Shown: positions 1 through 23,406 of the stretch, one piece after another
Position numbering within the stretch: position 1 is the first letter of the stretch
Layout of the letters: every line of letters begins with the position of its first letter
Virus record (IMG/VR): IMGVR_UViG_3300009164_000209
Location: 1-32,752 of that record
Strand: one strand, 5' to 3'
DNA length: 32,752 nucleotides
Origin: a virus
Program-made: the position numbers and the translations under genes
Notes under the pieces: model-generated
The model's database searches: none
What the model was told of the DNA's origin: nothing
Seen by the model: the letters and a program-made list of their open reading frames with translations, nothing else

Positions 1-1290
1 CATTATATGTTGTTTAACATTTATGTTCAGCAGATATCGAAATTAAATGTTCCTGGTGCTGTTGATCCTACTGCACAAAATGCTAATGCTCAATACATTA
101 CACAGAGTGGTATATCAAATGGTGGTACTGGCATAGGAGTAATAGGTGATATTGGAAGAGCTATTTCAGATAAATTTGGTGTACCTATTAAAAATAGTAT
201 TGCAGGTACTGGATTTGGTGATACTGTAAATGTTGTTCAAGATGCTTTATCACCATTAGGTGATGTTCTAGGTAATTTAGTAAACCAAACTTCAACTACG
301 TTTAATAACAATGTAGTAAAACTAACGAACAATATTGCAATTTATATGCCAGATACAGTTCAATTTGGATCAACTGCATCTTATGATACACAATCATTAT
401 CAGGTGATGCATTATCTATGTTAGGTGTGGGTAAATCATTAGTTGATCAATATACAAATGGTGATAGAGTAGCTAAATCAAATGCTATAACTGCTTTATT
501 AGGTGCTGTAAAAAATAAATTAGGAAGCTCAATTCCAGTATTGAGTAGTCGAACTTTTAATGCGGCATTTATTGGTAAATTTGGTGTAGTTAATCCTATG
601 GTTGAAGTTATGTATTCAAAACCTGAATTACGTAATTTTAGATTTGATTATATGTTTTATCCTAGAAGTGAAAGTGAAGCAGAAAAAGTTCAACAAATAA
701 TTTATCAGTTTCAATATCATCAAGCACCGGAACTTAAATCAGGTACTGCAGGATATATGTTAGTACCTCCATCAACTTTTGATATTGGATTTTATTATCG
801 TGGACAAGTTAATCCAAATATTCCAAGAATACTTTCATGTGTATTAAAACAAGTTGATGTAGATTATGCACCAAATGGTTTTCATGCATTTGAAAGTGAT
901 TATAATCAAACTATACCAAAAAAAGGCGGTACAGGTATGCCCGTTGGTATTAGATTATCATTAGCATTTCAAGAAACACAATATGTCACTAAACAATTTA
1001 TGGATGAAACTAAAGTTGCAGAAGCAGAAAAAGCCACCTATGATGCAAATAATCCAAATACTTGGGGTCGTAGTGATATAAATCCAGAAACAGGATTACC
1101 AAGAGATCAAAATACGTATGGTCCACAAACAAATACTACTTCAATTAGACCTAGTGCGAGACAAGTAAGTGTTAATAACCCAAATAATTTTGCTCGATCT
1201 GAACGAGGAATTATAAATTCAACTTCTCCTGTTTATGTTACAGGCCGAACAACTGCTCAAGAAAGAGCTTTAACAAATTACCGAGATTAA
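1..1290 (+). CDS. 48: Baseplate tail tube cap protein, gp48/gp54-like (5' partial)
   Basis: The product probably caps the baseplate hub and starts tail tube polymerisation, as T4 gp48 and gp54 do. The frame is open to the first base, so the ATG at 7 may be internal and the true start may lie upstream. At least 427 residues are present, against about 364 for T4 gp48. The N-terminal half is Gly/Asn-rich and poorly conserved. The recognisable part is a tube-like fold: residues near 210-240 hold the FRFDYMFYPRSESEAE region followed by an amphipathic helix (IIYQFQYHQAPEL), matching the FxWDLTPRS..E segment of gp48. Near residues 285-325 a DVDYAPNG segment and a beta strand ending in LSLAFQET match the C-terminal strands of that family. 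A low-complexity tail of about 95 residues follows. Position directly before gp53 fits marine T4-like phages. Whether it equates to gp48 or gp54 is not settled by sequence reading. Confidence 0.78.
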   Translation, partial: HYMLFNIYVQQISKLNVPGAVDPTAQNANAQYITQSGISNGGTGIGVIGDIGRAISDKFGVPIKNSIAGTGFGDTVNVVQDALSPLGDVLGNLVNQTSTTFNNNVVKLTNNIAIYMPDTVQFGSTASYDTQSLSGDALSMLGVGKSLVDQYTNGDRVAKSNAITALLGAVKNKLGSSIPVLSSRTFNAAFIGKFGVVNPMVEVMYSKPELRNFRFDYMFYPRSESEAEKVQQIIYQFQYHQAPELKSGTAGYMLVPPSTFDIGFYYRGQVNPNIPRILSCVLKQVDVDYAPNGFHAFESDYNQTIPKKGGTGMPVGIRLSLAFQETQYVTKQFMDETKVAEAEKATYDANNPNTWGRSDINPETGLPRDQNTYGPQTNTTSIRPSARQVSVNNPNNFARSERGIINSTSPVYVTGRTTAQERALTNYRD

Positions 1291-1294
1291 TAAT

Positions 1295-1903
1295 ATGTCA
1301 TTATTCTTTAATAACTTTCCAAAAACATACTATAAAATAGATAATTCTAATGAATTGGATACAGTTACAAATATAACTGCAAATTTTTCAATATTAAATT
1401 CATCTATAAATGCAACACAAGGTTATTATGATTATACAATAAGTGAAGGTGATACACCAGAAATAGTTGCATATAAAGTTTATGGTGATGCAGAATATCA
1501 TTGGTTAATAATGAGAATAAATGGTATAATGAATTTGAATACAGATTGGCCATTAACATATTCACAATTAATGGATTCAATAGAAGATTTATATGGTATT
1601 GCATATGCACAGACAAATTATAAAACACATTATAAAATTGAAAGAAAAACACTTGTTAAAACTGGTGACTATCTAGAAGAATATGTAACAATAGATGCTA
1701 ATACATATGCAAGTTTAGCACCAATTTCAACATTCTATACTTTACCCGATGGTACATCAATGCAACTTGATATCAGTAAACAAAGATTTACTTATTATGA
1801 TGATGAAGTTTTATCTAATGAAAAAAAGAGAACTATTAGATTAGTTAAACCACAATACAAAGAAATGATATTAACAGAATTACAAAGAGTATTGAATGGT
1901 TAA
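1295..1903 (+). CDS. 53: Baseplate wedge subunit gp53
   Basis: This is a baseplate wedge protein that joins neighbouring wedges around the hub in T4. Its length of 202 residues is close to T4 gp53 (196). The N-terminus (FFNNFPKTYYKI) is followed at about residues 43-80 by a LysM-like segment: YTISEGDTPEIVAYKVYGD, then a WLIMRINGIMN helix. The same order is found in T4 gp53 as the YYIKGSPRPEELANAIYG/YWVLLMCN region. The C-terminal half has a YDDEVLSNEKKR motif and ends in a helix (MILTELQRVL), as in gp53 (ENEKLRQIKI...MNDLIRIM). It starts 4 bases after the tube cap stop with only a weak purine stretch in front. Its last 8 bases overlap the next gene, which suggests translational coupling. Confidence is high because several separated motifs keep their order and spacing. 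Confidence 0.88.
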   Translation: MSLFFNNFPKTYYKIDNSNELDTVTNITANFSILNSSINATQGYYDYTISEGDTPEIVAYKVYGDAEYHWLIMRINGIMNLNTDWPLTYSQLMDSIEDLYGIAYAQTNYKTHYKIERKTLVKTGDYLEEYVTIDANTYASLAPISTFYTLPDGTSMQLDISKQRFTYYDDEVLSNEKKRTIRLVKPQYKEMILTELQRVLNG

Positions 1904-3182
1904 TCCTATAAGTAATAATCTTCGTTTCTTTATTGATGAATTAATTTTAGTAACTAAACTAGGTAATTTTGATTTATCAGATAAGTTTGAAGAATTAAAT
2001 ATATTTGATACAATACTTAACCCATGTATGTCGGGTAATATATTAATTACCGATGCTTTAAATTTAACTTCTAAATTTAATTTTGATGGATCAGATTTAC
2101 TTAAAATAAGTATTAAAAAAGATCCAAATGGTCCTATAACATTTAAAAAAACATTTAAAATATATGAAAAAGGTAAAACATTACCCTTAACTACTACATC
2201 TGAACAATATACATTATCATTTGTTTCAGAAGAATATTATTTTTCAAAAACAAAGAAGTTACAAAAAATGTATATAGGAAGAACATACTCAGATATTGCT
2301 CAAGAAATTATAGTAAAAGATTTGAATGTACCAAAGAAATTTATTATTGAAAACACTTTAGGTATCTTAAATTATTCAGGTAATAATAAAACACCTTTTG
2401 AATTTTTAACAGAATGTGCAACAAAAGCAATTTCTGCGGATGATCAATCACCAACGTATGTTTTCTTTGAGAACAAAAATGGTTTTAATTTTGTTTCATT
2501 ATCTTATATTGCAAAACAAAATCCAATAGCTAGAATTAATTATGCACCAAAAAACTTTGGTACTGATGATGAAATTTCTTTTTATGGTGCAATGCATTTA
2601 GAAGTTATTTCTCAGTTTGATGTTATAGATAATATTAATAGTGGATATTATGGCTCAAGTGGTGTTTATGTTGATTATTTAAATCGTAGAGTTATAACTA
2701 AAAATATTGGTCCTATAAGTAATAATACTAAATCAAAACAATTAAATAAAAATCCAGAAGTTTCACCAATACCAGAAGCTGTGAATCCAAATTTACGCAC
2801 TTGGGTTGTATATGGACCTACAGTTATTGCGACACAAAATAACACTTGGGTAAAAGAAAATAATCCTACAGCAACAAACACTTTAGATGATGTTATGCAA
2901 TATTTTGGTAGTAGACCTGCAGAAATGCGTAAGTATACTGAAAAAAGAGTCAAACTAGTAATGCCAGGTAATTTTAATCTAATCTGTGGTTCTGTTGTTG
3001 ATCTTTTAGTAACAAGTCGTGCTCAAAATATTTCATCAGATAGTAGAGATGATTCTTTAAGTGGTAAATATATAGTATTAGCATGTAGACATATTATAAA
3101 ATATGATAGACATGAAACAATATTAGAAATTTCTACAGATTCAAATAATAAAGAACTGTATCGTCCACAATCACAATATTAG
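1896..3182 (+). CDS. 27: Baseplate hub protein, gp27-like
   Basis: The likely role is the trimeric hub ring that sits under the tail tube and holds the spike protein (T4 gp27; related in fold to gpD/VgrG N-termini). It has 428 residues, against 391 in T4. Features seen: an N-terminal beta domain (RFFIDELILVTKLG, then FDTILNPCMSGNILITD), a second strand-rich region with LPLTTTSEQYTLSFVSEEYYF near 85-110, a helical YSDIAQEIIVKDL segment near 130-145, and TPFEFLTECATKAI near 165-180. The last resembles the segment in hub proteins where a helix packs against the second tube-like domain. The C-terminus has a late strand region with LVMPGNFNLICGSVVDLLV and GKYIVLACRHII, typical of hub proteins in this family. 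It overlaps gp53 by 8 bases and ends in TAG, one of only two TAG stops in the window. Followed by the OB-fold spike protein, which is the expected partner. Confidence 0.75.
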   Translation: MVNPISNNLRFFIDELILVTKLGNFDLSDKFEELNIFDTILNPCMSGNILITDALNLTSKFNFDGSDLLKISIKKDPNGPITFKKTFKIYEKGKTLPLTTTSEQYTLSFVSEEYYFSKTKKLQKMYIGRTYSDIAQEIIVKDLNVPKKFIIENTLGILNYSGNNKTPFEFLTECATKAISADDQSPTYVFFENKNGFNFVSLSYIAKQNPIARINYAPKNFGTDDEISFYGAMHLEVISQFDVIDNINSGYYGSSGVYVDYLNRRVITKNIGPISNNTKSKQLNKNPEVSPIPEAVNPNLRTWVVYGPTVIATQNNTWVKENNPTATNTLDDVMQYFGSRPAEMRKYTEKRVKLVMPGNFNLICGSVVDLLVTSRAQNISSDSRDDSLSGKYIVLACRHIIKYDRHETILEISTDSNNKELYRPQSQY

Positions 3183-3197
3183 GAGATTTATTAAATA

Positions 3198-3503
3198 ATG
3201 TCAAGTTTTCCAGGTGTAAATGCTGATATGTATTGGTTCATGGCTATTGTTGAAAATATCTATGATCCAGATATGGCAGGTAAAGTAAAAATTCGTGTCA
3301 TTGGTAAAGATACCTCTGATACAATGGCAACGCCAAGTGAGAGTTTACCTTGGGCACCATGTTTACTTCCAGCAAATTTTTCAAGAAAAACTATAGATGT
3401 GGAACCTGGTGATTGGGTTGTTGGATTTTATGTTGATGGATTAGTTGCTCGTCAACCAATGATTCTTGGCGTTATTCCAGGCATTACAACTTCCACAGGA
3501 TAA
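3198..3503 (+). CDS. gp5-like OB-fold protein (spike N-terminal domain as a separate gene)
   Basis: This 101-residue protein corresponds to the N-terminal OB-fold of the T4 gp5 central spike, which docks the spike under the gp27 ring. Visible signs: an opening strand (MYWFMAIVENIYDPDMAGKV) with the typical DPxxxGKVKIRVIG turn; a middle segment with SLPWAPCLLP; and a C-terminal DVEPGDWVVGFYVDG strand followed by RQPMILGVIPG. All are hallmark features of gp5/VgrG OB domains. T4 gp5 continues into a lysozyme domain and a beta-helix, but this protein stops right after the OB fold. An AGGAG at 3181-3185 lies 12 bases before the ATG, a rather long spacing. The TAA stop is followed by AAA and then the ATG of the next gene in the same reading frame, so only one stop codon separates them. 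Confidence 0.82.
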   Translation: MSSFPGVNADMYWFMAIVENIYDPDMAGKVKIRVIGKDTSDTMATPSESLPWAPCLLPANFSRKTIDVEPGDWVVGFYVDGLVARQPMILGVIPGITTSTG

Positions 3504-3506
3504 AAA

Positions 3507-4391
3507 ATGGCATTAAACTTAAATCTTCAAACAGTATTTCCATATTTGGCGTCAGCGCAACTTGCAAATCTAACGGCAACTCAGCGTTTAAGATTACCAC
3601 AATTGCCAGGTGGTATTGTACCTGCAGGTGGTTATATGAGACCATCTAATACACCAACTGCATCTATTACTACAGAAAATACTTTAGTTAGATTAACAAA
3701 TTTAGATTTGGCTCATGTATGTGATATTAGTGGAGATATAAAAAGAAGTGCTGCATATCAATATCTAAAAAGTCACATTGGTATTGAAGCAATAACTAAA
3801 GCATTAGGAATTACTACTACTGCTAAAGGACTAATACCTTCTGCATTAACAACTACCCTTACTGCTGCTCTTGAATATGTTAGAGATGTATTAAGAACTG
3901 TTAATAAATATTTAAAAATAGTTAAAGCAGTAGCCGATGCGTTAATTCTTTATGTTGTTATCATTCGTGCAGTTATCAATTGGATTATGACATTACCTGC
4001 AAAACTATTAAGAATGATGAAAGAATGTGCATTTGCATTTTTCAATTCAATCATAGCTATTGGAAATGATTTATTAAGCACACCCGGTGGTATTTTAGGA
4101 CCAGAGTTTAAGACACTAACGAATGAGATGAAAGCAACATTTAATGAAGCAAAAAGTGTTATTAAAAATACTCTTGCAGTAGCTCAAATACCAGGTCAAA
4201 TATTAAATGCAGTATTAAATACAAATGTAACTTTAAATCCAGATCAAGCATTAGCTGCATTAGATGAAGCAACTATAAATTTACAAAATACATTAACAGC
4301 TTCAACCGCATTTGATCCGGCAACTCTTGTTCCACCAACAGCTGTAACACAAGATGCGTATCCGGCATCAGGTAAGACAGCTATTACTTAA
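3507..4391 (+). CDS. Unrecognised helical structural protein between the two spike genes
   Basis: I do not recognise a family for this 294-residue protein. Residues 1-70 are Leu/Pro/Thr-rich and probably extended (PQLPGGIVPAGGYMRPSNTP near 31-50). From about residue 95 it looks almost entirely helical. A long hydrophobic stretch lies at about residues 141-185, including AVADALILYVVIIRAVINWIM and then ECAFAFFNSIIAIG. A C-terminal helical part with an Ala/Asn/Thr-rich tail follows. No catalytic motif of lysozyme or endopeptidase type is seen. It sits exactly where T4 gp5 has its lysozyme domain, between OB fold and beta-helix. AGGA at 3497-3500, 6 bases before the ATG, supports this start. By position it is probably a tail-tip component. 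The hydrophobic helices could contact the host membrane or the tape measure, but that is inference only. Confidence 0.7.
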   Translation: MALNLNLQTVFPYLASAQLANLTATQRLRLPQLPGGIVPAGGYMRPSNTPTASITTENTLVRLTNLDLAHVCDISGDIKRSAAYQYLKSHIGIEAITKALGITTTAKGLIPSALTTTLTAALEYVRDVLRTVNKYLKIVKAVADALILYVVIIRAVINWIMTLPAKLLRMMKECAFAFFNSIIAIGNDLLSTPGGILGPEFKTLTNEMKATFNEAKSVIKNTLAVAQIPGQILNAVLNTNVTLNPDQALAALDEATINLQNTLTASTAFDPATLVPPTAVTQDAYPASGKTAIT

Positions 4392-4410
4392 TATAATGGA
4401 AAAATAAAAT

Positions 4411-5430
4411 ATGGCAAGTTTACAGGCAGGTATAGAACAAGCGATTGCTGCAATAAAACCACCTACAACAGTTGCAAGTAGTGGTGAAACAAATAATACA
4501 AACAATGATAATAAATCTATTCCTCCAGCTCCAGGTGGTCAAAGTGGATGGATGGAACCACCATCACCGTTTAATGAAGATCCAGAATTAGGTCCAGTTA
4601 ATAAACCTGTCTATCCACATAATCAAGTAATATCTTCTAAGAGTGGTCATGCATTTCATATGGATGATACGAAAGGTGCTGAACGTGTTAGATTAGAACA
4701 TAGAACAGCCACTTTTTTAGAAATGCATCCTGATGGATCACAAGTTAATAAAATACAAGGTGATAGTTATGAGATTGTTGCTAAAAATAATAATGTATTA
4801 ATCAAAGGTAGTTGTAATATTACTGTTATTGGTGACTGTGTAATAGAATGTCAAAATAAAATTGAAAAGATAAATGGCGATTATAATTTGCAAGTTGCTG
4901 GAAAATTTACAGTAATGGCAGGAGATATGATTGTTCATTCTGATAAAGATGTAGAGATAACGGCGGGATCAGGTACTGTTGGTGTAGGTAATATCCAGTT
5001 AAGTTCTGCAGATGGTGTTTTTGTTAAAGGTAAACTTACTGCTTTAAATAGTTTTTATGCAAATGAAATTTTCTCATCAACTAAAATTACTGCTACTACA
5101 CAAGTTATATCTGGACATCTTGGTTTTCTAAGCCGAACCGGAGGATTATTTCTTGGTGTGGAAGCATCTATTCCAGGTGTGATAGATATTCCCCCTATTG
5201 TAAGTCCCGCATTTTCAATACCTGGAATTGTAGTTAATGGAACTGGTATAACAACTACAGGATTTATGTTAGCTGGATTAAGTATGTTTGCGCCATTGGT
5301 TACAGGTATAGTTACGTCAGATATTTTGGGTCCTATGATGTTTATAAGACTTTGGGACATACTTCATAATCATACTGCACCAACTGGACCAACAACACCT
5401 CCATTACAAGCCGGCACTTTGATGGCTTAA
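4411..5430 (+). CDS. 5: Central spike protein, gp5 C-terminal/VgrG-like beta-helix with HxH tip
   Basis: This 339-residue protein probably forms the trimeric membrane-piercing spike. Residues 1-60 are low complexity (Thr/Asn/Pro-rich). At about 70-110 is the conserved pre-helix segment seen in gp5 and VgrG proteins: SSKSGHAFHMDDTKGAERV, then a LEHRTATFLEMHPDGS strand pair. Residues 110-215 have a regular alternation of short strands and Gly/Asp/Asn turns (IKGSCNITVIGDCVIE; INGDYNLQVAGKFTVMAGD), as expected for the intertwined beta-helix. Residues 240-310 are Gly/Ile/Pro-rich and hydrophobic. The C-terminus has H319-N-H321 followed by a TAPTGPTTPP segment. This matches the tip of P2 gpV and related spikes, where an HxH motif binds an iron ion. 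No OB fold or lysozyme is present; the OB fold is the separate gene at 3198. A GGA 10 bases upstream serves as a modest ribosome binding site. Confidence 0.82.
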   Translation: MASLQAGIEQAIAAIKPPTTVASSGETNNTNNDNKSIPPAPGGQSGWMEPPSPFNEDPELGPVNKPVYPHNQVISSKSGHAFHMDDTKGAERVRLEHRTATFLEMHPDGSQVNKIQGDSYEIVAKNNNVLIKGSCNITVIGDCVIECQNKIEKINGDYNLQVAGKFTVMAGDMIVHSDKDVEITAGSGTVGVGNIQLSSADGVFVKGKLTALNSFYANEIFSSTKITATTQVISGHLGFLSRTGGLFLGVEASIPGVIDIPPIVSPAFSIPGIVVNGTGITTTGFMLAGLSMFAPLVTGIVTSDILGPMMFIRLWDILHNHTAPTGPTTPPLQAGTLMA

Positions 5431-12940: not shown

Positions 12941-15900
12941 ATGACTACCCTATTCAATTACGATCCATATTACGATGATTTCAATGAAGATAAAAATTTC
13001 ATGCGTGTTCTTTTTCGTCCTGGATATTCAGTTCAAGCAAGAGAACTTACTCAACTGCAAACAATTTTATCTAATCAAATAGAAAAATTTGGTAATAATA
13101 TATTCAAAAGTGGTAGTCCAATTATTGGTGGTAAAATTTCATTAGATACTGCGGCCAATTATATTATCTTAAATGCACAATATAATAATGCAGATATTGT
13201 TCCTTCAGATTATCTAGACAAAACAATCGTATCTTATAATTCTACAAAATTAGCACGTGCTAAAGTTGTTGCTGTTGATAGTATTGGTACATATCCTGTT
13301 TTAGTTATTAAATATCTAAGTGGTGATCGTTTTGTTGAAACTGATGAATTAAAGATTTATGGACAAAATATCTTTGCACAATTAAGAGATACAGATGCAT
13401 ATGGTTCTTCATATATTGCCAGTATTCAAGATGGTGTATATTATTTTAAAGGTCAATTTGTAAAAGTTACTCCACAATTTTTAGTAATAGAGTTATTTTA
13501 TAGAATAGGTACTTCTACAACAATTAATAAACAACCATCATATAAGATTGGTGTTGAATTTGAATCAACTATTGTAGATGAAATTGATGATACTTCACTA
13601 TTAGATCCAGCACAAGGTGCATTTAACTATCAAGCACCGGGTGCAGAACGATTTGTAATTAATACTTCATTATCAAAACGATCATTAGATTCTGCAGATG
13701 TATCTTCATTCTTTGAAGTTATTCGTTTAGTAGATGGTGTAAAGACAAAAGAAATTGATTACCCAATCTACAGCGAAATTGAAAAGATGTTGGCACGTAG
13801 AACATATGATGAGTCTGGTAATTATACAGTAGACCCATTTGTTATTTCTATTGAAGAAGGTGATTCTGCCAATGGTATGTTTAATATTGTTCTTGATCCA
13901 GGTAAAGCATATGTTGGTGGTTATGAATTTCAAACTATTGCACCAACAACAATTGAATTAAGTCGTGCTAGAGAAGTAGCAAATACTGAAGGTTATGATG
14001 TATCAACAAATTACGAAAGTTATGTTGTATTGGATAATGTATATGGTACATTAGATATTACAAGTTATCCATTATTAGATGTGCATAGTGTTGCACACAC
14101 AAGTGTTAATACAACAACCACTGCGGCATATAATTCTACAAAGATTGGTGAAATTCGTGCCAATATGATGGATTATAATGACTCAACAACTTTAGAACTT
14201 GGCACTACACATTCATTTACTGTTCACACATTTGCCGCTAATGGCGTATCAATTACTGGTACAACTCAAGCATCGGGATCAAATACAAGATTAATCAATA
14301 TGCCCGCAAGTTTTTCTGCTACACGGAGTACCGATGCATATGCAAATATGTATTTTAGAGTTACTGATGCGGGTGGTACTGCAATTTCTCCAGTATTAAT
14401 TGAATCGTCTAATGCAACACATATCTATTTGTCATCCGCATGGCCAATTGTTCCTGCATCAAATACATTCTCTATTGATTCTGATTTTAAAAATGCAGAA
14501 TCATTTGTAATTAAAAGTGGAACTACAAAAACATTTGGTGGTAGTATTAATAGTGATTCAAAAGATACTGCAACTGGATTTGCATTAATTACAGAACCAC
14601 AAAGATCATCATTAGTATTTGATGTACCATTTCCTGCAATGAAACCATCTACATTAACAAATATGGATTTCTATGCTAAAAAGTTTTATGGTAACAAAAC
14701 TGCAGATGCTGGTGGTGTAGTTAGTATTAGTGCAGAAGGTACAGATACATTCTCATTCTGCGGTTCTGTTGGTGTTATTTCCGATTCAAATATCAGAGAT
14801 AATATTATTTGTATGGTTCGTTATGATACTACTGCAAATGCCACATCTGGTATTGCTGCAAATGCTGTTCTTGGATTAGCAAATAACTTATTTACTGTAA
14901 CTGCGATCAGTTCAACAAATTTTGAGATTGATTTAAATACTGCAGGCGCAAAAGTAGATTTGTTAATTAATACAAAAGTTAATAATGCAGAAAATGCATC
15001 TTCTGGTGCAATTCGTGGTAAACAATTAATACCAGCAACAACTGGTTTAAATCTACATACTAAGATTCCATATGAATTAAATACTGCAGGTACACAAGGT
15101 ACTGATATTTTATATTCTGCAAATTCAACTGGAGTGACTGCAGTAAGTGGAACAGGATATGTATTTCCTACTATTGGTTCAACATTCTTTGACAATACTA
15201 CCGAATTAACAAATTTAAGAACACCAGGTAAAGCAGTAAGTTTACAAGTACCTGATGTATTAGAGATTGTTAGAATTACCGATTCTAGAAGTCCTGCATC
15301 AAATGTAACAACTGCAATGTTATCAAGTTCAACATATGATGTTACTAGTAATTATGATTTTGATAATGGTCAACGTAAAACACATTATGACCATGCCACT
15401 ATTACACTGAAACGTGGGTATAGTGCGCCACGTGGTAAAGTTTATGTTACTTACAAATATCTAAGTCATCAATCTGCACCATCTCCACAAAATGATGGAT
15501 TGTTCACTGTTGATTCTTATTTAAAAGCAGGTTCTAATTTTACATATGATGAAATCTTCTATTTCAATAATAAAGAAGATAACAAATTAGTATCGTTACG
15601 GTCTGCATTTGACTTTAGACCAACAAGAGGTGTTGGTACAACAACAATATCTGGTGCAGTTAATCCATTACCAAATCAATCATTGACAAGTAATTTTGAT
15701 TATTACTTAAGTAGAATTGATCGTGTTGTGGTTAAACAGTCAAGAGATTTTGAAGTATTGACCGGTACATCTGCAATTAAACCTATTGCACCAAATGTAA
15801 ATCTTGGTGATATGTTAATCTATACATTGGCAATACCAGCATATACAGAAAATGTTAAAGAAATTCGTGCTGATTTTCAGAATCATCGTAGATATACAAT

Positions 15901-18900
15901 GCAAGATATTGGTGCATTTGAAAATCGTATTAAACAATTAGAGTATTATGTTACATTAAATTCATTAGAAAGAGATGCAACATCAACAAAAATTACAGAT
16001 GCAAATGGTTTAGAAAGATCCAAGTATGGTATCTTAACTGATAACTTTACTTCAGATTCTATCAAAGCACCACCAAATCAAATTGGATTTGACAATAGAT
16101 GTTTAATTGATGGTGGCGAATTAAAACCCGCATCATTAATGAGAACAATTAATCTTAAAGCAAATACAACTTTATCTACTGGTGAACTTTATGGTGTAAA
16201 TGAACAAAAGATCATGATGTTGAGTTATACAACATCTGTTCTTGCACAACAACCGTATGCAACAAAATCATCACCAGTTGCTGGTGCATTATATGGCACA
16301 TTTAAAGGAACAATGCGTTTGTTCCCAGAATTTACTGGTGATGTAGATTCACAAACCACAGCAAAAGTAATATTAAATTCTACTCAAGGCATTGAAAATG
16401 CATTTAATTTTGTTAATGATGCATTTAAGTATATTGCTGATAATGTAAAACAATGGGCAGATGATAAAGATAGTCCATTTGCACAAATAGCAGATTCAAA
16501 ATGGTACCAAACTAGAACCGAAGAAGGTGGTACAGTTTACAAATATTTAGGTACTGGTGGTTTTGGACATGGTGAATTTTGGGATCCTAGACAAGGTAAA
16601 AATACACAAGGCGGCCAATGGGGTGTTTATCGAGCATATAATGATAATACTTATTTAACTGCTGGTGCTGATCTAAATCAAAAACAAATAACAACATCGG
16701 CATCACAACAAAGTTCTGGAGAGTTTGTAACTGATTTAGCAATTCAACCATACATGAAGTCAAAACAAGTATTATTTACAACAAATGGTTTACGCCCATC
16801 AACAACTGTATATTCATTTTTTGATGATGTAAATGTAAACAAATATGTTGTTGTACCTAATAAAGTTACAATGAATGCCAATACAACATTGATTGCTGGA
16901 GAACCAGTATTAATTGCGAGTTCAACTGCAGATTTAGTAGCGAATCTAGTATCATTGTTAAGTGGTGGTTCATCATATAAATTAGGTGACATTGCTGTTA
17001 GTGAGACTGGTAGTGCTAATGTTTCCATTATTAATCAAACCGGGTTATCACTTGTTGGTAAATATGTTTATGGTTTAGATAGTGGTGTAACATTAACAGT
17101 ATCTTCAGTGAATGACCATAGATCGGGTGTAGGCACTGTATCAGGTGCAACTATTGTATTGGATGGAAATGCATCTACAACTAATGATTACTATAATGGC
17201 AATACAATATCAATAGTTCATACTTCAACTTCAGAAGTTGGTATTGGTGAACAATTTACAATTAGTTCTTATGTTGGCTCTACAAAAACAGCAACATTAA
17301 GTGCTACACCAACAACACAAGGTTCTGTTGTTTATAGTATTGGAACTAATAAAACTAACAAATATGGCCAAGCAGGTGGTGCATTTTATATCCCAACTGC
17401 AACATTCCGTTCAGGTCAAAGAAATTTCCGTGTAACAGAATCATTTAATAATACATATGATGGTGATTCAATATCATTTGCAGATAAATTATATGTTGCA
17501 TCAGGATTAAGTGTATCTAAAACAGAATTAGTTGATACTGTTTATAACTATGATGTAGATTCTAAAATTATTGGAACGACTACATCCGATAAATTAGTAT
17601 CATCTAGATTTGCTGGTGCTAATCTATTATACACATACAATCATGATCCTTTAGCAGAAACATTTTATGTTGATCCGGCAAGATATCCATACGGTATTTA
17701 CTTGAATAGTGTAGATTTATTCTTCAAAGCAAAAGATGATAGTTTACCTGTTTGGATTCAAATTCGCCCAACTGTAAATGGAACACCATCATCTGATTTT
17801 TGGTATCCAGAATCAGTTGTAACTAAAGTGCCATCTCAAGTTAATATTTCAGAAACTCCATCAGTTGACGATGCTACAACAATTACTAATTTCCAATTCT
17901 ATACTCCTATATTCTTAAAACCAGGTTTATATGCAGTTGTTGTATTAACTGATTCACCAGATTACATTTTATGGGAAGCAGAAAAAGGTCAAGTATCAAC
18001 AAGTAATCAATATATTGGTATTAATCCATATATCGGAACATTATATCGTTCACAAAATTCTATGGAGTATGTACCATATATTAATGAAGATTTAATGTTC
18101 AGATTAAATCGTTGTTCATTCTCAACTGCAGCTGCACAAATAGTAATGCAGAGTGAAGAACAGAGTGTAATCTATAATGTTGATAAATTTAGATTATTAG
18201 AAACATCTATTGTTCCAACAGGTACTTCAGTTAATTATTCAGTAAAAGCAAATACAATTAGTGGTACAATGGAAACAAGTTATCGCCCAATTGTACCACA
18301 AGCAGTAATATCTTTTGAGAATGATGACTTGTATGCAGTTGGTTACAGAAGAAAAACTTTAGGTTATAAAGGTGACTTTACTATTATAACTGAATTATCA
18401 ACTACAGATGAAGCAGTTTCACCTATTGTTTCTGTAGAAAAATCTCAATTAAATATTTGGGAAAATTATGTTGATGATGCAGAAATAAATTCAGAAGATT
18501 TTACAATTGTTGCTTCGGGAACTGGTTATGGAAATTCTAATGTTATCGTTATTAGCAGTAATACTGGTACAGGTTTTAGTGGTAATCTTTCATGTGATGC
18601 AAGTGGCAATATTCTTAGTGTGTATGTTTCTGCTGTTGGTTCTGGTTACATTGATGACTATACTATAACTATCGGTGCAAATACAAACTATCCTGCTGTT
18701 GCCGCATCAGGTACAAATGGTAGTGTAGTATTGAATACTGAATATGATTCAAGTGGTGGTCCATGTCTTGCAAGATATATTACAAGACAGATTCAATTGG
18801 CACCAGGATTTGATGCGGGTGATTTACGTGTATTCTTAACTGCAAATAAACCTTTAGGTACTTCAGTTGATGTATTCTGTAAATTATTATCTGGTTCTGA

Positions 18901-19162
18901 TGGTACTCAATTTAAAGATAGAAGATATCAAAAATTGGTTAATATTAATCCAAATCCAGTACCATCATTGACACAATATGAATTTACTGATTATGAATAT
19001 TGTCCATCGGCAACTGATAATTTTATTACCTATACTTCATCTAATGGCGTAACATATAATACATTTATAACTTTATCAATTAAGATTGTAATGAGATCGG
19101 GTGATCCTACAATTTTACCAAGAGTTAAAGATTTACGTGTAATTGCATTGCCTGCGGAGTAA
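12941..19162 (+). CDS. Giant baseplate/virion structural protein, DUF4815-like (2073 aa)
   Basis: The largest gene in the window. Its N-terminus (FNYDPYYDDFNEDKNFMRVLF, then RPGYSVQARELTQLQTILSNQ and SGSPIIGGKI) is the recognisable start of DUF4815-containing proteins. In marine T4-like phages these sit downstream of gp8 and are thought to form the outer baseplate or fibre-attachment part, perhaps in place of T4 gp10 (inference). Residues 100-330 carry the repeated beta pattern of that domain (YIASIQDGVYYFKGQFVKV; IVLDPGKAYVGGYEFQT). The central region is Thr/Ser/Asn-rich beta sequence. Near 990-1030 is a helical IGAFENRIKQLEYYVTLNSLE segment, and near 1590 a LAETFYVDPARYPYGIYLNSVDLFF segment, both typical of the family. 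A GxGY module lies at about 1851-1925. GAGGA 4 bases before the ATG is a good ribosome binding site. Confidence 0.85.
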   Translation: MTTLFNYDPYYDDFNEDKNFMRVLFRPGYSVQARELTQLQTILSNQIEKFGNNIFKSGSPIIGGKISLDTAANYIILNAQYNNADIVPSDYLDKTIVSYNSTKLARAKVVAVDSIGTYPVLVIKYLSGDRFVETDELKIYGQNIFAQLRDTDAYGSSYIASIQDGVYYFKGQFVKVTPQFLVIELFYRIGTSTTINKQPSYKIGVEFESTIVDEIDDTSLLDPAQGAFNYQAPGAERFVINTSLSKRSLDSADVSSFFEVIRLVDGVKTKEIDYPIYSEIEKMLARRTYDESGNYTVDPFVISIEEGDSANGMFNIVLDPGKAYVGGYEFQTIAPTTIELSRAREVANTEGYDVSTNYESYVVLDNVYGTLDITSYPLLDVHSVAHTSVNTTTTAAYNSTKIGEIRANMMDYNDSTTLELGTTHSFTVHTFAANGVSITGTTQASGSNTRLINMPASFSATRSTDAYANMYFRVTDAGGTAISPVLIESSNATHIYLSSAWPIVPASNTFSIDSDFKNAESFVIKSGTTKTFGGSINSDSKDTATGFALITEPQRSSLVFDVPFPAMKPSTLTNMDFYAKKFYGNKTADAGGVVSISAEGTDTFSFCGSVGVISDSNIRDNIICMVRYDTTANATSGIAANAVLGLANNLFTVTAISSTNFEIDLNTAGAKVDLLINTKVNNAENASSGAIRGKQLIPATTGLNLHTKIPYELNTAGTQGTDILYSANSTGVTAVSGTGYVFPTIGSTFFDNTTELTNLRTPGKAVSLQVPDVLEIVRITDSRSPASNVTTAMLSSSTYDVTSNYDFDNGQRKTHYDHATITLKRGYSAPRGKVYVTYKYLSHQSAPSPQNDGLFTVDSYLKAGSNFTYDEIFYFNNKEDNKLVSLRSAFDFRPTRGVGTTTISGAVNPLPNQSLTSNFDYYLSRIDRVVVKQSRDFEVLTGTSAIKPIAPNVNLGDMLIYTLAIPAYTENVKEIRADFQNHRRYTMQDIGAFENRIKQLEYYVTLNSLERDATSTKITDANGLERSKYGILTDNFTSDSIKAPPNQIGFDNRCLIDGGELKPASLMRTINLKANTTLSTGELYGVNEQKIMMLSYTTSVLAQQPYATKSSPVAGALYGTFKGTMRLFPEFTGDVDSQTTAKVILNSTQGIENAFNFVNDAFKYIADNVKQWADDKDSPFAQIADSKWYQTRTEEGGTVYKYLGTGGFGHGEFWDPRQGKNTQGGQWGVYRAYNDNTYLTAGADLNQKQITTSASQQSSGEFVTDLAIQPYMKSKQVLFTTNGLRPSTTVYSFFDDVNVNKYVVVPNKVTMNANTTLIAGEPVLIASSTADLVANLVSLLSGGSSYKLGDIAVSETGSANVSIINQTGLSLVGKYVYGLDSGVTLTVSSVNDHRSGVGTVSGATIVLDGNASTTNDYYNGNTISIVHTSTSEVGIGEQFTISSYVGSTKTATLSATPTTQGSVVYSIGTNKTNKYGQAGGAFYIPTATFRSGQRNFRVTESFNNTYDGDSISFADKLYVASGLSVSKTELVDTVYNYDVDSKIIGTTTSDKLVSSRFAGANLLYTYNHDPLAETFYVDPARYPYGIYLNSVDLFFKAKDDSLPVWIQIRPTVNGTPSSDFWYPESVVTKVPSQVNISETPSVDDATTITNFQFYTPIFLKPGLYAVVVLTDSPDYILWEAEKGQVSTSNQYIGINPYIGTLYRSQNSMEYVPYINEDLMFRLNRCSFSTAAAQIVMQSEEQSVIYNVDKFRLLETSIVPTGTSVNYSVKANTISGTMETSYRPIVPQAVISFENDDLYAVGYRRKTLGYKGDFTIITELSTTDEAVSPIVSVEKSQLNIWENYVDDAEINSEDFTIVASGTGYGNSNVIVISSNTGTGFSGNLSCDASGNILSVYVSAVGSGYIDDYTITIGANTNYPAVAASGTNGSVVLNTEYDSSGGPCLARYITRQIQLAPGFDAGDLRVFLTANKPLGTSVDVFCKLLSGSDGTQFKDRRYQKLVNINPNPVPSLTQYEFTDYEYCPSATDNFITYTSSNGVTYNTFITLSIKIVMRSGDPTILPRVKDLRVIALPAE
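18491..18715 (+). repeat. GxGY-type beta module in the DUF4815-like protein
   Basis: About 75 codons encode FTIVASGTGYGNSN, NTGTGFSGNLS, ILSVYVSAVGSGYIDD and a final strand. The order of strands and GxGY turns matches the modules in gp6, the 932-residue protein and gp8. Confidence 0.55.
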
Positions 19163-19398: not shown

Positions 19399-22300
19399 AT
19401 GGCAATAACTAATATCACCAAAAATAATACAATAGATGAATGGCGAATTCAAACCAATCTGTCTGCTAATGCATTAAATACGATAGAAACTGGCAACTAT
19501 TCAAAGACAAATGGTACTTTTACACTTTCAGGTAATTCTAATTTATCAATTACTGCAAATGGTACTGCATTAACAGTTGCTAATGCAGTTTTATTTTCTA
19601 CTGATCTTGAAGTTGGTAAAAGTATAACACTTGGTTCTCAATCTTCACAAACTGGTAATTTAACTGTCGGTGCAAATACTTTCATATATGGTAAAGGAAC
19701 TGCACTCTACGTTGCTAACAATGTTTTAGCAAACTTAAATCTACAAGTAACTAATAATATTACAACAAGTAATATTTCAACAAATAATGATATTGCAATA
19801 GGTAGAAATGCATCTATTGTAAACAAACTAAGTATGACAGGTACTGGTAATGTAGTATTTGTCAATGTAGGTTCTGCAAGTATTAATACTGCATACTTGA
19901 CAGATATGGTAACAACAAATTCAAAATCAACAAGATCAACAATCTATGATACTTTAGATGTTGTTGGTGTTGCAACATATTCTTCAAATATTGTTGGTAC
20001 AAGTTTAAATTTAAGTGCTGTTGCTAATACACTTACATTAAATGTTAGAACAAATGGTACAGTATTTGGTAACTTAAATACAGGTAATACTGTAACTACA
20101 AATACAACACAAACAGGCAATCTAAGAGTAACTACTGCTGCTAATGTTGATGGTACACTTAGAGTAACTGGTGGTGCTAATTTAGATAGTACCTTAAGAA
20201 CAACTGGCGCAGCTAACTTAGATAGTACCTTGAGAGTAACCGGTGGTGCTAACTTAGATAGTACCTTGAGAGTCACCGGTGCATCAAACTTAGCAAGTAC
20301 CTTAAAAGTAACTGGTGGTGCAAATCTAGATAGTACCTTGAGAGTTACTGGTACTGCTAATTTAGATAGCACGTTAAATGTTGTTGCAAATACAACTTCA
20401 GGTAATCTCAATACACTTGGACTTACACATACTGCAACATTACGTTCTACTGGTCGTGCTGACTTTGCAACCACAGTGGATGTTGTTGGTAACACAACTT
20501 CGGGTAATGTAGTAACTGCAGGATTAACACACACAGGCACATTACGTTCTACTGGTCAAGCTGACTTTGCTACAATAGTTAATGTAACAGGAAACGTAAA
20601 TCCAGGTAATGTAGTAACTGCAGGATTAGTTCACACTGGAACTGTAAGAAGCACAGGTCGTGCTGATTTTGCATCAACTGTAGATGTTACAAGTAATACA
20701 ACTTCTGGTAACTTCGTGACTACAGGATTAACTCATACAGGAACATTAAGAACAACAGGTCGTGCTGATTTCTCTACTGTAGATTCAAGTTCTAATACAA
20801 CTGCAGCTAATTTTGTAACCACAGGTCTTACTCATAGTGGAACATTAAGAACAACTGGTGCAGCTAATTTAGAAAGTACCTTAAGAGTAACTGATTCAGC
20901 CAATTTAGATAGCACATTAAGAGTCACCGGTGCATCAAACTTAGCAAGTACCTTAAGAGTAACTGGTGCTGCAAACCTTGATAGTACCTTAAGAGTAACT
21001 GGTACTGCTAATTTAGATAGTGCATTACGTGTTGTTGGTATTGCAAATCTTGATAGCACATTACAAGTTACAGGTAATACTGATGTAGGTAATTTAAATA
21101 CTACTGGATTAGTATATGCTGGAACATTAAGAACAACAGGTCGTGCAGATGTTGGTGGAGCACTAACTGCAGGCGCAGTAACATTTACATCTGGACAAGT
21201 TACCGGTAATTTCTCTGTTGCTGGTGATTTTACAATTAATGGTAATACGGTATACAATTCACCCGCATTAACATTAAGTATTGCAACACCAAATCAAGAC
21301 GGTAAATTTAGTATCTATAGAACAAACAATAGTTTAAGTTTAGCAAATTCAGTTTCTCAAAATGCATCTATTCGTTGGAATGAATCAACTAAATATTTTG
21401 ACTTAACAACTGACCCAGCAAATACTGTTTATTTTCAAATCTTAGATTCTGGTCGTTTAAGTAGTGATTTAACAAATACTTCAACAACAATTATTGCAAC
21501 TGCATCTGCTGCAAACACATTAAACAATCGTGCAACATCTGCTGGTGTATATGCTAATGCTGCATACTTAAGTCAAAACACAAGTGGTGCATATGCCAAT
21601 GCTGCTTATCTAAGTCAAAATACTACAGGTGTATATGCTAATACTGCATACTTACATGCCAACGCTGCTTATTTAAGTCAAAACTCTACAGGCAATTATG
21701 CCAACAGTGCATATCTACATGCTAATAGTTCTTACTTATCACAGAATAGTTCTGGTCAATATGCCAATAGTGGGTATTTACATGCAAATAGTGCTTATTT
21801 AAGTCAAAACTCTACAGGCAATTATGCCAACAGTGCATACTTACATGCTAATGCGGCTTACTTAAGTCAAAATTCTACAGGCAATTATGCCAATGCAGCA
21901 TACACATTAGCAAATACAAAGTTTGCATCTGCTGGTGGTACTGTATCTGGTGATGTTGTAGTTACTGGTAATTTAACTATTTCTGGTTTAACAACATATG
22001 TAAATACAACAGAATTAAAAGTTGGTGATTCTATCATCACATTAAATGCAGATTTACCACAAATATCTGCACCAACTGAAAATGCAGGTATCGAAGTTGA
22101 AAGAGGAACTTCAGATAACGCTGCTATCATTTGGAATGAAACGACAGATAAATGGACATTTACTAATGATGGTACCATCTATAGTAATATAGGTTCTGCT
22201 GCTTCTGAAACATATTCTAACAGTGCCTATCTACATGCAAATAGTTCTTATTTGTCTCAAAACAGTTCTGGTCAATATGCCAACAGTGCTTATCTACATG

Positions 22301-23406
22301 CTAATAGTTCTTATTTGAGTCAAAATGCAACTGGAATATTTGCTAACGGTGCATATCAATATGCCAATAGTGCGGGGTCTTATGCTAATGCCGCTTTTGC
22401 ATTAGCAAATACAGTTAATACGAATGATACTGCCTCAAGAAGTTATGCTAATGGTGCTTTTGTTGCTGCCAATACTGCCGATCAAAGAGCAGTAACATCT
22501 GGTTCATATGCCAATTCTGCATATACACAGGCAAATACTGCAACTACTAATGCTGCTACTGCAGACCAAAGAGTAGTAACATCTGGTTCATACGCTAACT
22601 CTGCATATGCATTGGCTAATACCGTTAATACAAATGATACTGCGGCAAGAAGTTATGCTAATGGTGCTTTTGTGCAAGCTAATACTGCAACAACAAATGC
22701 CGCAACTGCCGATCAACGTGCAGTAACATCCGGTTCTTATGCTAACAGTGCATATGCAAAAGCAAATACTGCGGTTACTTCAGTAACAGGAACTGCACCT
22801 GTTGTATCATCGGGTGGTCTAACACCAGCAATTTCAATGGCAGCTGCAACTTCAACCGTCAATGGTTATATGACAAGTACCTATGCAAGTAAGTTGGATG
22901 GTATTGCTGCGAGTGCTCAACCAGGTACTGTAACTTCAGTTGCTACAGGTAATGGACTAAGTGGTGGAACAATTACAACTACTGGCACATTAACAATGTC
23001 TGGTTCATATACTGGTGATTTTGCAATCACAGGTAATTTAACCGCTACTGGTGATGTTACTGCATTTTATTCAGATCAAAGATTAAAGAAAAATATTACA
23101 CCAATTACAGATGCATTATCAAAAGTTAATACTTTAAGAGGTGTATTGTATCAAGGAAATGAAATTGCTGAATCTTATGGATATACTGATACCAAAATAA
23201 AAGTTGGTGTTATTGCACAAGATTTAGAAAAAGTATTACCACAAGTTGTCGTACCCGCTCCATTTGATACTGATAAAGAAGGTAATAGTATATCTGGAGA
23301 AAATTATAAAACTGTTCAATATGAAAAGATTGTTCCATTATTAATTGAGGCAATAAAAGAATTAACTGCCAAGGTAAGTGAACTTGAATCAAAGATAAAT
23401 AAATAA
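19399..23406 (+). CDS. Tail fibre with 12/34-residue repeats, YAN heptad shaft and C-terminal S74 chaperone
   Basis: A 1335-residue fibre. Residues 1-30 (NITKNNTIDEWRIQTNLSANALNTIETG) form a typical N-terminal segment of marine myophage fibres. Residues 241-603 contain 12-residue TLRVTGGANLDS-type and 34-residue TLRSTGRADFA-type repeats, probably a beta-structured shaft. A divergent copy of the fibre beta module lies near 609-700 and a clear copy at 841-935. Residues 715-840 and 935-1126 are YANxAx heptads. The C-terminus has a peptidase S74 intramolecular chaperone: S1225-D-Q-R-L-K1230-K-N-I, then VGVIAQDLEKVLPQVV, YKTVQYEKIVPLLIEAI and a final coiled coil. In endosialidases the equivalent Ser-Lys pair drives self-cleavage after trimer folding; cleavage here would release about 111 residues. 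The gene follows the double stop of the 76-residue gene. Likely a receptor-binding or structural side fibre. Confidence 0.88.
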   Translation: MAITNITKNNTIDEWRIQTNLSANALNTIETGNYSKTNGTFTLSGNSNLSITANGTALTVANAVLFSTDLEVGKSITLGSQSSQTGNLTVGANTFIYGKGTALYVANNVLANLNLQVTNNITTSNISTNNDIAIGRNASIVNKLSMTGTGNVVFVNVGSASINTAYLTDMVTTNSKSTRSTIYDTLDVVGVATYSSNIVGTSLNLSAVANTLTLNVRTNGTVFGNLNTGNTVTTNTTQTGNLRVTTAANVDGTLRVTGGANLDSTLRTTGAANLDSTLRVTGGANLDSTLRVTGASNLASTLKVTGGANLDSTLRVTGTANLDSTLNVVANTTSGNLNTLGLTHTATLRSTGRADFATTVDVVGNTTSGNVVTAGLTHTGTLRSTGQADFATIVNVTGNVNPGNVVTAGLVHTGTVRSTGRADFASTVDVTSNTTSGNFVTTGLTHTGTLRTTGRADFSTVDSSSNTTAANFVTTGLTHSGTLRTTGAANLESTLRVTDSANLDSTLRVTGASNLASTLRVTGAANLDSTLRVTGTANLDSALRVVGIANLDSTLQVTGNTDVGNLNTTGLVYAGTLRTTGRADVGGALTAGAVTFTSGQVTGNFSVAGDFTINGNTVYNSPALTLSIATPNQDGKFSIYRTNNSLSLANSVSQNASIRWNESTKYFDLTTDPANTVYFQILDSGRLSSDLTNTSTTIIATASAANTLNNRATSAGVYANAAYLSQNTSGAYANAAYLSQNTTGVYANTAYLHANAAYLSQNSTGNYANSAYLHANSSYLSQNSSGQYANSGYLHANSAYLSQNSTGNYANSAYLHANAAYLSQNSTGNYANAAYTLANTKFASAGGTVSGDVVVTGNLTISGLTTYVNTTELKVGDSIITLNADLPQISAPTENAGIEVERGTSDNAAIIWNETTDKWTFTNDGTIYSNIGSAASETYSNSAYLHANSSYLSQNSSGQYANSAYLHANSSYLSQNATGIFANGAYQYANSAGSYANAAFALANTVNTNDTASRSYANGAFVAANTADQRAVTSGSYANSAYTQANTATTNAATADQRVVTSGSYANSAYALANTVNTNDTAARSYANGAFVQANTATTNAATADQRAVTSGSYANSAYAKANTAVTSVTGTAPVVSSGGLTPAISMAAATSTVNGYMTSTYASKLDGIAASAQPGTVTSVATGNGLSGGTITTTGTLTMSGSYTGDFAITGNLTATGDVTAFYSDQRLKKNITPITDALSKVNTLRGVLYQGNEIAESYGYTDTKIKVGVIAQDLEKVLPQVVVPAPFDTDKEGNSISGENYKTVQYEKIVPLLIEAIKELTAKVSELESKINK
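20119..20370 (+). repeat. 36-bp (12-residue) coding repeat array 1
   Basis: Seven consecutive 36-bp units encode [TN]LRVTGGANLDS-like dodecamers (residues 241-324 of the 1335-residue fibre). Variable positions fall mostly at residues 4, 6, 7 and 12 of the unit. Some units are almost identical in DNA, others differ by synonymous changes. Confidence 0.85.
20437..20841 (+). repeat. 102-bp (34-residue) coding repeat array
   Basis: Four units of 34, 34, 34 and 33 residues, each TLRSTGRADFA(T/S), then TVDVxxNTTSGN, then (V/F)VTxGLTHTG. The unit equals two 12-residue repeats plus a 10-residue piece. The region therefore looks like a compound form of the flanking 12-residue arrays. The fourth unit has lost one codon. 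Confidence 0.8.
20842..21057 (+). repeat. 36-bp (12-residue) coding repeat array 2
   Basis: Six 36-bp units encode TLRVTGAANLDS-like dodecamers (residues 482-553 of the 1335-residue fibre). The TLRVTGASNLAS unit at 20914-20949 is nearly the same as the one at 20263-20298 in array 1, which suggests internal duplication of the array. Confidence 0.82.
21541..22776 (+). repeat. YANxAx heptad shaft (21-bp period) in the 1335-residue fibre, split by a beta module
   Basis: Two blocks (21541-21918 and 22201-22776) encode 7-residue repeats such as YANSAYL/HANSAYL/SQNSTGN and SYANGAF/VQANTAT/TNAATAD/QRAVTSG, with a nearly invariant Asn at the fourth position of each heptad. The part between them encodes the SGD..TGNL fibre beta module. 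Confidence 0.8.
23071..23406 (+). other. S74 intramolecular chaperone domain, predicted self-cleavage point
   Basis: The codon for Ser1225 (23071) opens the SDQRLKKNI motif of the S74 family. Downstream GVIAQDLEKVLP and the final VSELESKI helix complete the domain. By family analogy, cleavage would occur just before this serine, with K1230 as the partner residue. Confidence 0.82.
23394..23405 (+). promoter_or_regulatory. Candidate T4-like late promoter (GATAAATAAATA) before the 110-residue gene
   Basis: Two overlapping TAAATA cores lie across the end of the S74 fibre gene. With T4 spacing, transcription would start near 23407-23411, leaving a short leader that still holds the AAAGGA ribosome binding site. 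Chance occurrence in AT-rich DNA cannot be excluded. Confidence 0.35.

Follow-up and report, generated by a model that had tools for sequence, protein, structure and literature searches.

The three consecutive genes that follow the tail hub gene in this virus are best read as a single gp5-type central spike that has been divided by fission. The broader reading favoured here, to which we give a probability of about 0.6, is that the spike underwent fission, that a structural helical module took up the lysozyme slot, and that the peptidoglycan hydrolase is carried by another tail protein. The window (the whole stretch of DNA analysed, a linear virus record of 32,752 bases) carries on its + strand a T4-like baseplate cluster in the order cap, gp53-like protein, hub, OB domain, a helical protein referred to here as MID, β-helix, U5, gp25, and gp6 (Table 1). 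The cap gene has a longer version in the overlapping contig L002, and the 89 bases of L002 upstream of it do not reveal the identity of the neighbouring gene. From its gene position, the 428-aa hub probably fills the role of T4 gp27; a sequence search of the PDB matched nothing to the phrog_350 hub proteins, which occupy the gp27 place.

Table 1. Genes of the baseplate cluster from the tube cap to U5, with positions in the window and the basis for each assignment
Feature	Position	Strand	Basis
Tube-cap protein (phrog_230)	7..1290	+	phrog_230, E 1e-33; truncated by window start
gp53-like wedge protein	1295..1903	+	PF11246, 24.6 bits against a cut-off of 21
Hub protein, 428 aa (phrog_350 'tail protein')	1896..3182	+	phrog_350, E 1.5e-60
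OB domain of central spike, own 101-aa gene	3198..3503	+	T4 gp5 and phrog_430 profile matches
MID, 294-aa helical protein	3507..4391	+	Family of 127 distinct sequences, linker match, predicted helices
β-helix needle, 339 aa, HxH tip near residue 319	4411..5430	+	T4 gp5 and phrog_430 profile matches
U5, 278 aa	5461..6297	+	No Pfam or PHROG family match; adjoins β-helix gene

Past gp6, the cluster continues with more baseplate and fibre genes. These include a DUF4815 protein of 2073 aa (12941-19162), a length unusual for the cluster, and a fibre-like protein of 1335 aa (19399-23406) that ends in a C-terminal Peptidase_S74 intramolecular chaperone domain. The Pfam scan covered all ORFs of the window except that at 29796-32525.

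The divided spike and the lysozyme slot

The initial annotation proposed that the OB fold and the β-helix of gp5 are encoded here by separate genes, and profile comparisons bear this out. An OB profile made from the window protein and two relatives matches T4 gp5 at residues 6-104 (E 7e-8), and the β-helix profile matches it at residues 382-503 (E 2e-23), so that the two lie on either side of the lysozyme. The same ORFs match phrog_430, the OB ORF at the N-terminus (E 3e-21) and the β-helix ORF at positions 312-465 (E 4e-35). A single gp5-like precursor chain, of the kind that T4 cleaves during maturation, is absent; three separate ORFs are found instead, and MID is the sole counterpart in the window of the T4 gp5 stretch between OB and β-helix, where the lysozyme lies. 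The HxH tip noticed on the 339-residue protein is also present, as LHNHTAPTG, and HxH occurs within the last 60 residues of 101 of the 110 homologous β-helix proteins of MID loci.

The middle gene had been regarded as an open, single case, which no longer holds: MID is a widespread family with 127 distinct relatives. Single-sequence searches with MID returned two copies identical to it and two relatives that are 26-28% identical, all in the same gene order. To build the family, alignments of MID, OB, β-helix, and hub were run against viral contigs and the fetched loci were scanned with HMMs, which yielded about 170 MID ORFs (127 distinct sequences) on uncultured viral contigs; the MID from the contig group closest to the window is 58% identical. 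Every separate MID with a known upstream gene follows an OB gene (88 of 88, median gap 2 bases), and every MID with a known downstream gene precedes a β-helix gene (122 of 122, median gap 3 bases). This is the survey of synteny that the initial annotation had suggested, and an identical gene order at more than 100 loci is beyond chance. In 34 of the 127 distinct sequences MID is fused to the C-terminus of the OB domain; the HMM scan of the fetched loci revealed none fused to the β-helix. On the hub tree, presence or absence of MID accounts for five changes, and fused or separate state for five changes among the rows with MID; thus, both characters have changed repeatedly. U5 is kept directly after the β-helix gene in most loci whether MID is present or absent and is not specific to MID. 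No MID was found among cultured phages by tblastn with diverse MID proteins against 50,697 records, at BLAST sensitivity only, nor in bacterial genome contigs, and no published description of MID was found in the open-access literature searched.

What ties MID to the spike is a linker. In fused spikes whose OB and β-helix have nothing inserted between them, there is a linker, GFxDPxGxxPxxxxExTxxRLARGxxxxT; when it is added to the OB profile, the match to T4 gp5 runs to residue 140, ahead of the lysozyme. The second half of this linker aligns with the MID N-terminus, GxPTxPxLARGxxxxTxI, with an hhalign score of 24.1, as compared with 12.6 for the best of 40 column shuffles. In the OB-MID fusions, a GFxDxR motif is retained after OB, and profile comparison finds the LARG half of the linker in the MID family; the split copy of the window, in which the gp5-type linker spans about residues 41-65 of MID, has no clear GFxD part. 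With the gp5-type linker before it and a T4-type β-helix after it, MID falls in the lysozyme slot, an assignment that is well supported. The placing of the middle gene in the lysozyme's position by the initial annotation is upheld by this linker together with the OB fusions.

The divided spike thus resembles T4 gp5 in having a homologous OB domain, the linker that follows it, and a triple-stranded β-helix, and differs from it in being encoded by three genes rather than as one chain, in having a helical module rather than a lysozyme, and in the HxH tip on its needle. The place assigned to MID is that of the T4 lysozyme domains, which flank the β-helix and are connected through two long linkers (PMC3004832).

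The helical module and its possible roles

The 294-residue protein was described as having no lysozyme motif, and the window MID has no lysozyme match in Pfam or PHROG. Nor did a profile search place it in a known unrelated family, since none fits among Pfam, PHROG, and solved structures. Comparison of 72 members with Pfam and the PHROGs gave only scattered matches to unrelated coiled-coil families (tape measures, SbcC, and coiled coils), some of them reaching E-values of about 1e-6 or 1e-7, that fall on charged helices, and comparison with the sequences of solved structures yielded nothing beyond designed coiled coils and the helices of fusion proteins. At the level of structure, Foldseek found no match for MID in the PDB. 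VIA-align returned STAT, MukF, and t-SNARE bundles at Z of about 12 (best 12.6), values that are common among helical bundles and below the discriminating level, and neither program found a specific structural relative with known function. The top structural match of a MID model is A0A6J5LI42 of the BFVD, an uncharacterised protein of an uncultured Caudovirales phage with no recorded function (Foldseek probability 0.99, 25% identity, E-value 0.012, low TM-score), which is probably itself a member of the MID family.

Three positions, C72, P164, and C174, do not vary among 72 MID representatives, and at four more (H70, D73, I160, and L163) conservation is at least 90%. The motif HxC[D/G/E] is present in 118 of 120 distinct sequences, and 90 of the 120 have exactly two Cys; in the window protein, HxCD lies at 70-73, an SLP-type turn at 162-164, and the other invariant Cys at 174. 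AlphaFold2 predicts helices at 75-106, 114-161, 165-190, and 199-226 of the window MID with a mean pLDDT of only 63, which is low, and at 55-87, 93-139, 143-171, and 175-197 of a compact member with a moderate pLDDT of 74. MID is predicted to form a long four-helix bundle.

Taken together, these observations are consistent with a mechanism in which the product of the OB gene would dock to the trimeric hub, MID would be joined after it via the gp5 linker, and the β-helix gene would supply the needle, whose His-x-His tip probably holds a metal. MID itself would be a non-enzymatic long helical bundle that replaces the T4 lysozyme domain, most likely as a structural adapter or spacer that joins the OB ring to the separate needle and fills the packing space of the lysozyme. 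Peptidoglycan would be cut by the tape-measure-like protein beside gp26, bearing an M23, lysozyme, SLT, GH19, or GH24 domain and delivered through the tube. The adapter role is suggested by the position of MID, its fusion to OB, and its helical content, and the parts of the spike presumably assemble as trimers.

A different role is conceivable for the helices. The long hydrophobic stretch noted in the 294-residue protein is real, with a best 19-residue Kyte-Doolittle mean of 2.16 from residue 145, and 54% of 120 MIDs contain a 19-residue window with a mean hydropathy of at least 1.6 (the best windows hold a median of one charged residue). MID could be a membrane-active module, akin to the membrane-inserting tail tip component considered by the initial annotation: its helices would be exposed when the needle is shed and would enter the outer or inner membrane, as a DNA path or an anchor for the tube, and its two nearly invariant Cys might serve as a switch that responds to redox state or metal. 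Against this, just under half of the MIDs fall below 1.6, most helices are amphipathic, as would fit a soluble bundle equally well, and searches matched MID to no pore-forming family or fold. We regard this possibility, the chief alternative to the adapter role, as unlikely, and its more specific form, a membrane-penetrating spike module stapled or gated through metal or redox chemistry by the His and two Cys with wall cutting left to the tape measure, as decidedly doubtful. Nothing in these results shows that MID acts on the cell envelope, as the lysozyme replacement considered by the initial annotation would.

MID could also act outside the virion, as an assembly chaperone for the spike or the tape measure, as might be expected of a small helical gene in a tail operon with weak coiled-coil PHROG matches to tape measures. 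Those matches are spread across unrelated coiled-coil families, however, and the OB fusions and the gp5 linker indicate that MID belongs to the spike chain, which makes a chaperone improbable. It is more improbable still that MID is an unrecognised cell-wall enzyme that directly replaces lysozyme: the slot that it occupies and the conserved His-x-Cys-Asp motif would suit such an enzyme, but the conserved polar residues are nearly limited to H70, C72, D73, and C174, the prediction is all-helical with no match to an enzyme family, and in relatives a different tail protein bears a recognised hydrolase. T4 has additional hub proteins, gp28 among them, whose place is uncertain (PMC3004832), and MID might likewise be a hub or tip protein without relation to gp5 that happens to be encoded between its two parts; the linker homology, strict gene order, and OB fusion make this hardly credible.

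The probable site of the peptidoglycan hydrolase

The spike encoded in the window contains no hydrolase domain in profile scans, and GH24, VgrG3-C, M15_3, and M23 have no match in the window record. A second, lysozyme-bearing gp5 elsewhere in the genome had been named as a finding that would overturn the divided spike; each of 19 related contigs has one gp5-type OB, and thus no second gp5. In the relatives, hydrolase domains lie on ORFs of 440-790 aa that are found upstream of the cap next to a gp26-like gene (phrog_150), mostly on the opposite strand. A recognised hydrolase is present on this ORF in 16 of the 21 MID phages whose gp26-adjacent ORF was in hand, and the matching gene lies outside the window. 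The domains are of many kinds: GH24 (L254, L255, L286), GH19 below the curated cut-off (L256), VgrG3-type (L257), Phage_lysozyme2 or SLT (L259, L260, L269, L278), M23 (L262, L265, L270), and PHROG endolysin or transglycosylase matches (L261, L263, L266, L277). The remaining five (L264, L267, L268, L284, L285) show weak hydrolase signs only. The M23 match of L262 (E 3e-30) comes from the closest relative, a contig that shares 64% hub identity with the window.

We call the gp26-adjacent ORFs tape-measure-like because some of them match PHROG tape-measure families; these matches fall partly within the lysozyme region, and the tape-measure identity is a probable one judged from sequence. In L254-L257, L261, L264, L266, L268, L270, L277, L278, and L286, the tape-measure position is occupied by two adjacent ORFs, with the hydrolase usually on the gp26 side, and several of these pairs resemble paralogues.

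Phages with a hydrolase on gp5 itself show the reverse arrangement. Only one of five also has a hydrolase on the gp26-adjacent ORF: L271, L272, L273, and L282 carry their own GH19, VgrG3, or M15-type domain on gp5 and none on that ORF, the exception being L258/L222. In this last phage, represented by L222:8338-9999 and L258:2710-4710, the spike has a weak C-terminal M15-like match below the cut-off and the ORF at the tape-measure position has GH19. The comparison between MID phages and phages with a hydrolase-bearing gp5 gives a Fisher p of 0.03, but the independent-pairs test has only 2-3 pairs, and with so few independent evolutionary events the trade-off between spike and tape-measure hydrolase is a pattern and not proof. 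Spikes with neither MID nor a hydrolase (L037, L041, and XG4) are also accompanied by a hydrolase on the gp26-adjacent ORF; in L037 and L041, which were checked for a hydrolase at the tape-measure position, this looks like parallel replacement.

The absence of lysozyme reported by the initial annotation thus stands for the spike, which has no hydrolase, and probably not for the function as a whole. As relatives carry the hydrolase on a tape-measure-like protein, lysozyme absent probably means lysozyme relocated. Relocation may hold for the window phage too, whose hydrolase gene would be out of view because the window starts inside the cap gene.

There is published precedent for a hydrolase on another tail protein in phage P1, whose gp5 has no lysozyme and in which an SLT domain is part of the tape measure, Sit (PMC9024508). 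The P1 gp5 is reported as OB and β-helix only, and neither a MID module nor a three-gene layout is described there (PMC9024508). Similarly, gp25 of Anabaena phage A-1(L) is a spike of an OB domain and a β-strand needle without a hydrolase, and the hydrolases are on another baseplate protein (PMC10966104). Unlike the MID phages, A-1(L) has these on the hub, and it has no helical module between OB and needle. The gp5 of Synechococcus phage BUCT-ZZ01 (UTS51949.1) shares with the window the hub family, the gene order, and the OB and β-helix, but it is one chain of 939 aa that bears GH19 and a weak C-terminal M15-like match.

The spike of T4 serves as the model for how contractile tails pierce the cell, and its lysozyme is usually taken as built in. 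Many uncultured T4-like phages appear to differ, with the spike encoded in two or three genes and an unnamed, conserved helical family in the lysozyme slot, and with diverse hydrolases borne by a separate tail protein. For annotation, this predicts that MID marks spikes that have no hydrolase. These phages may thus offer a testable case of the separation of the piercing and wall-cutting functions of the tail.
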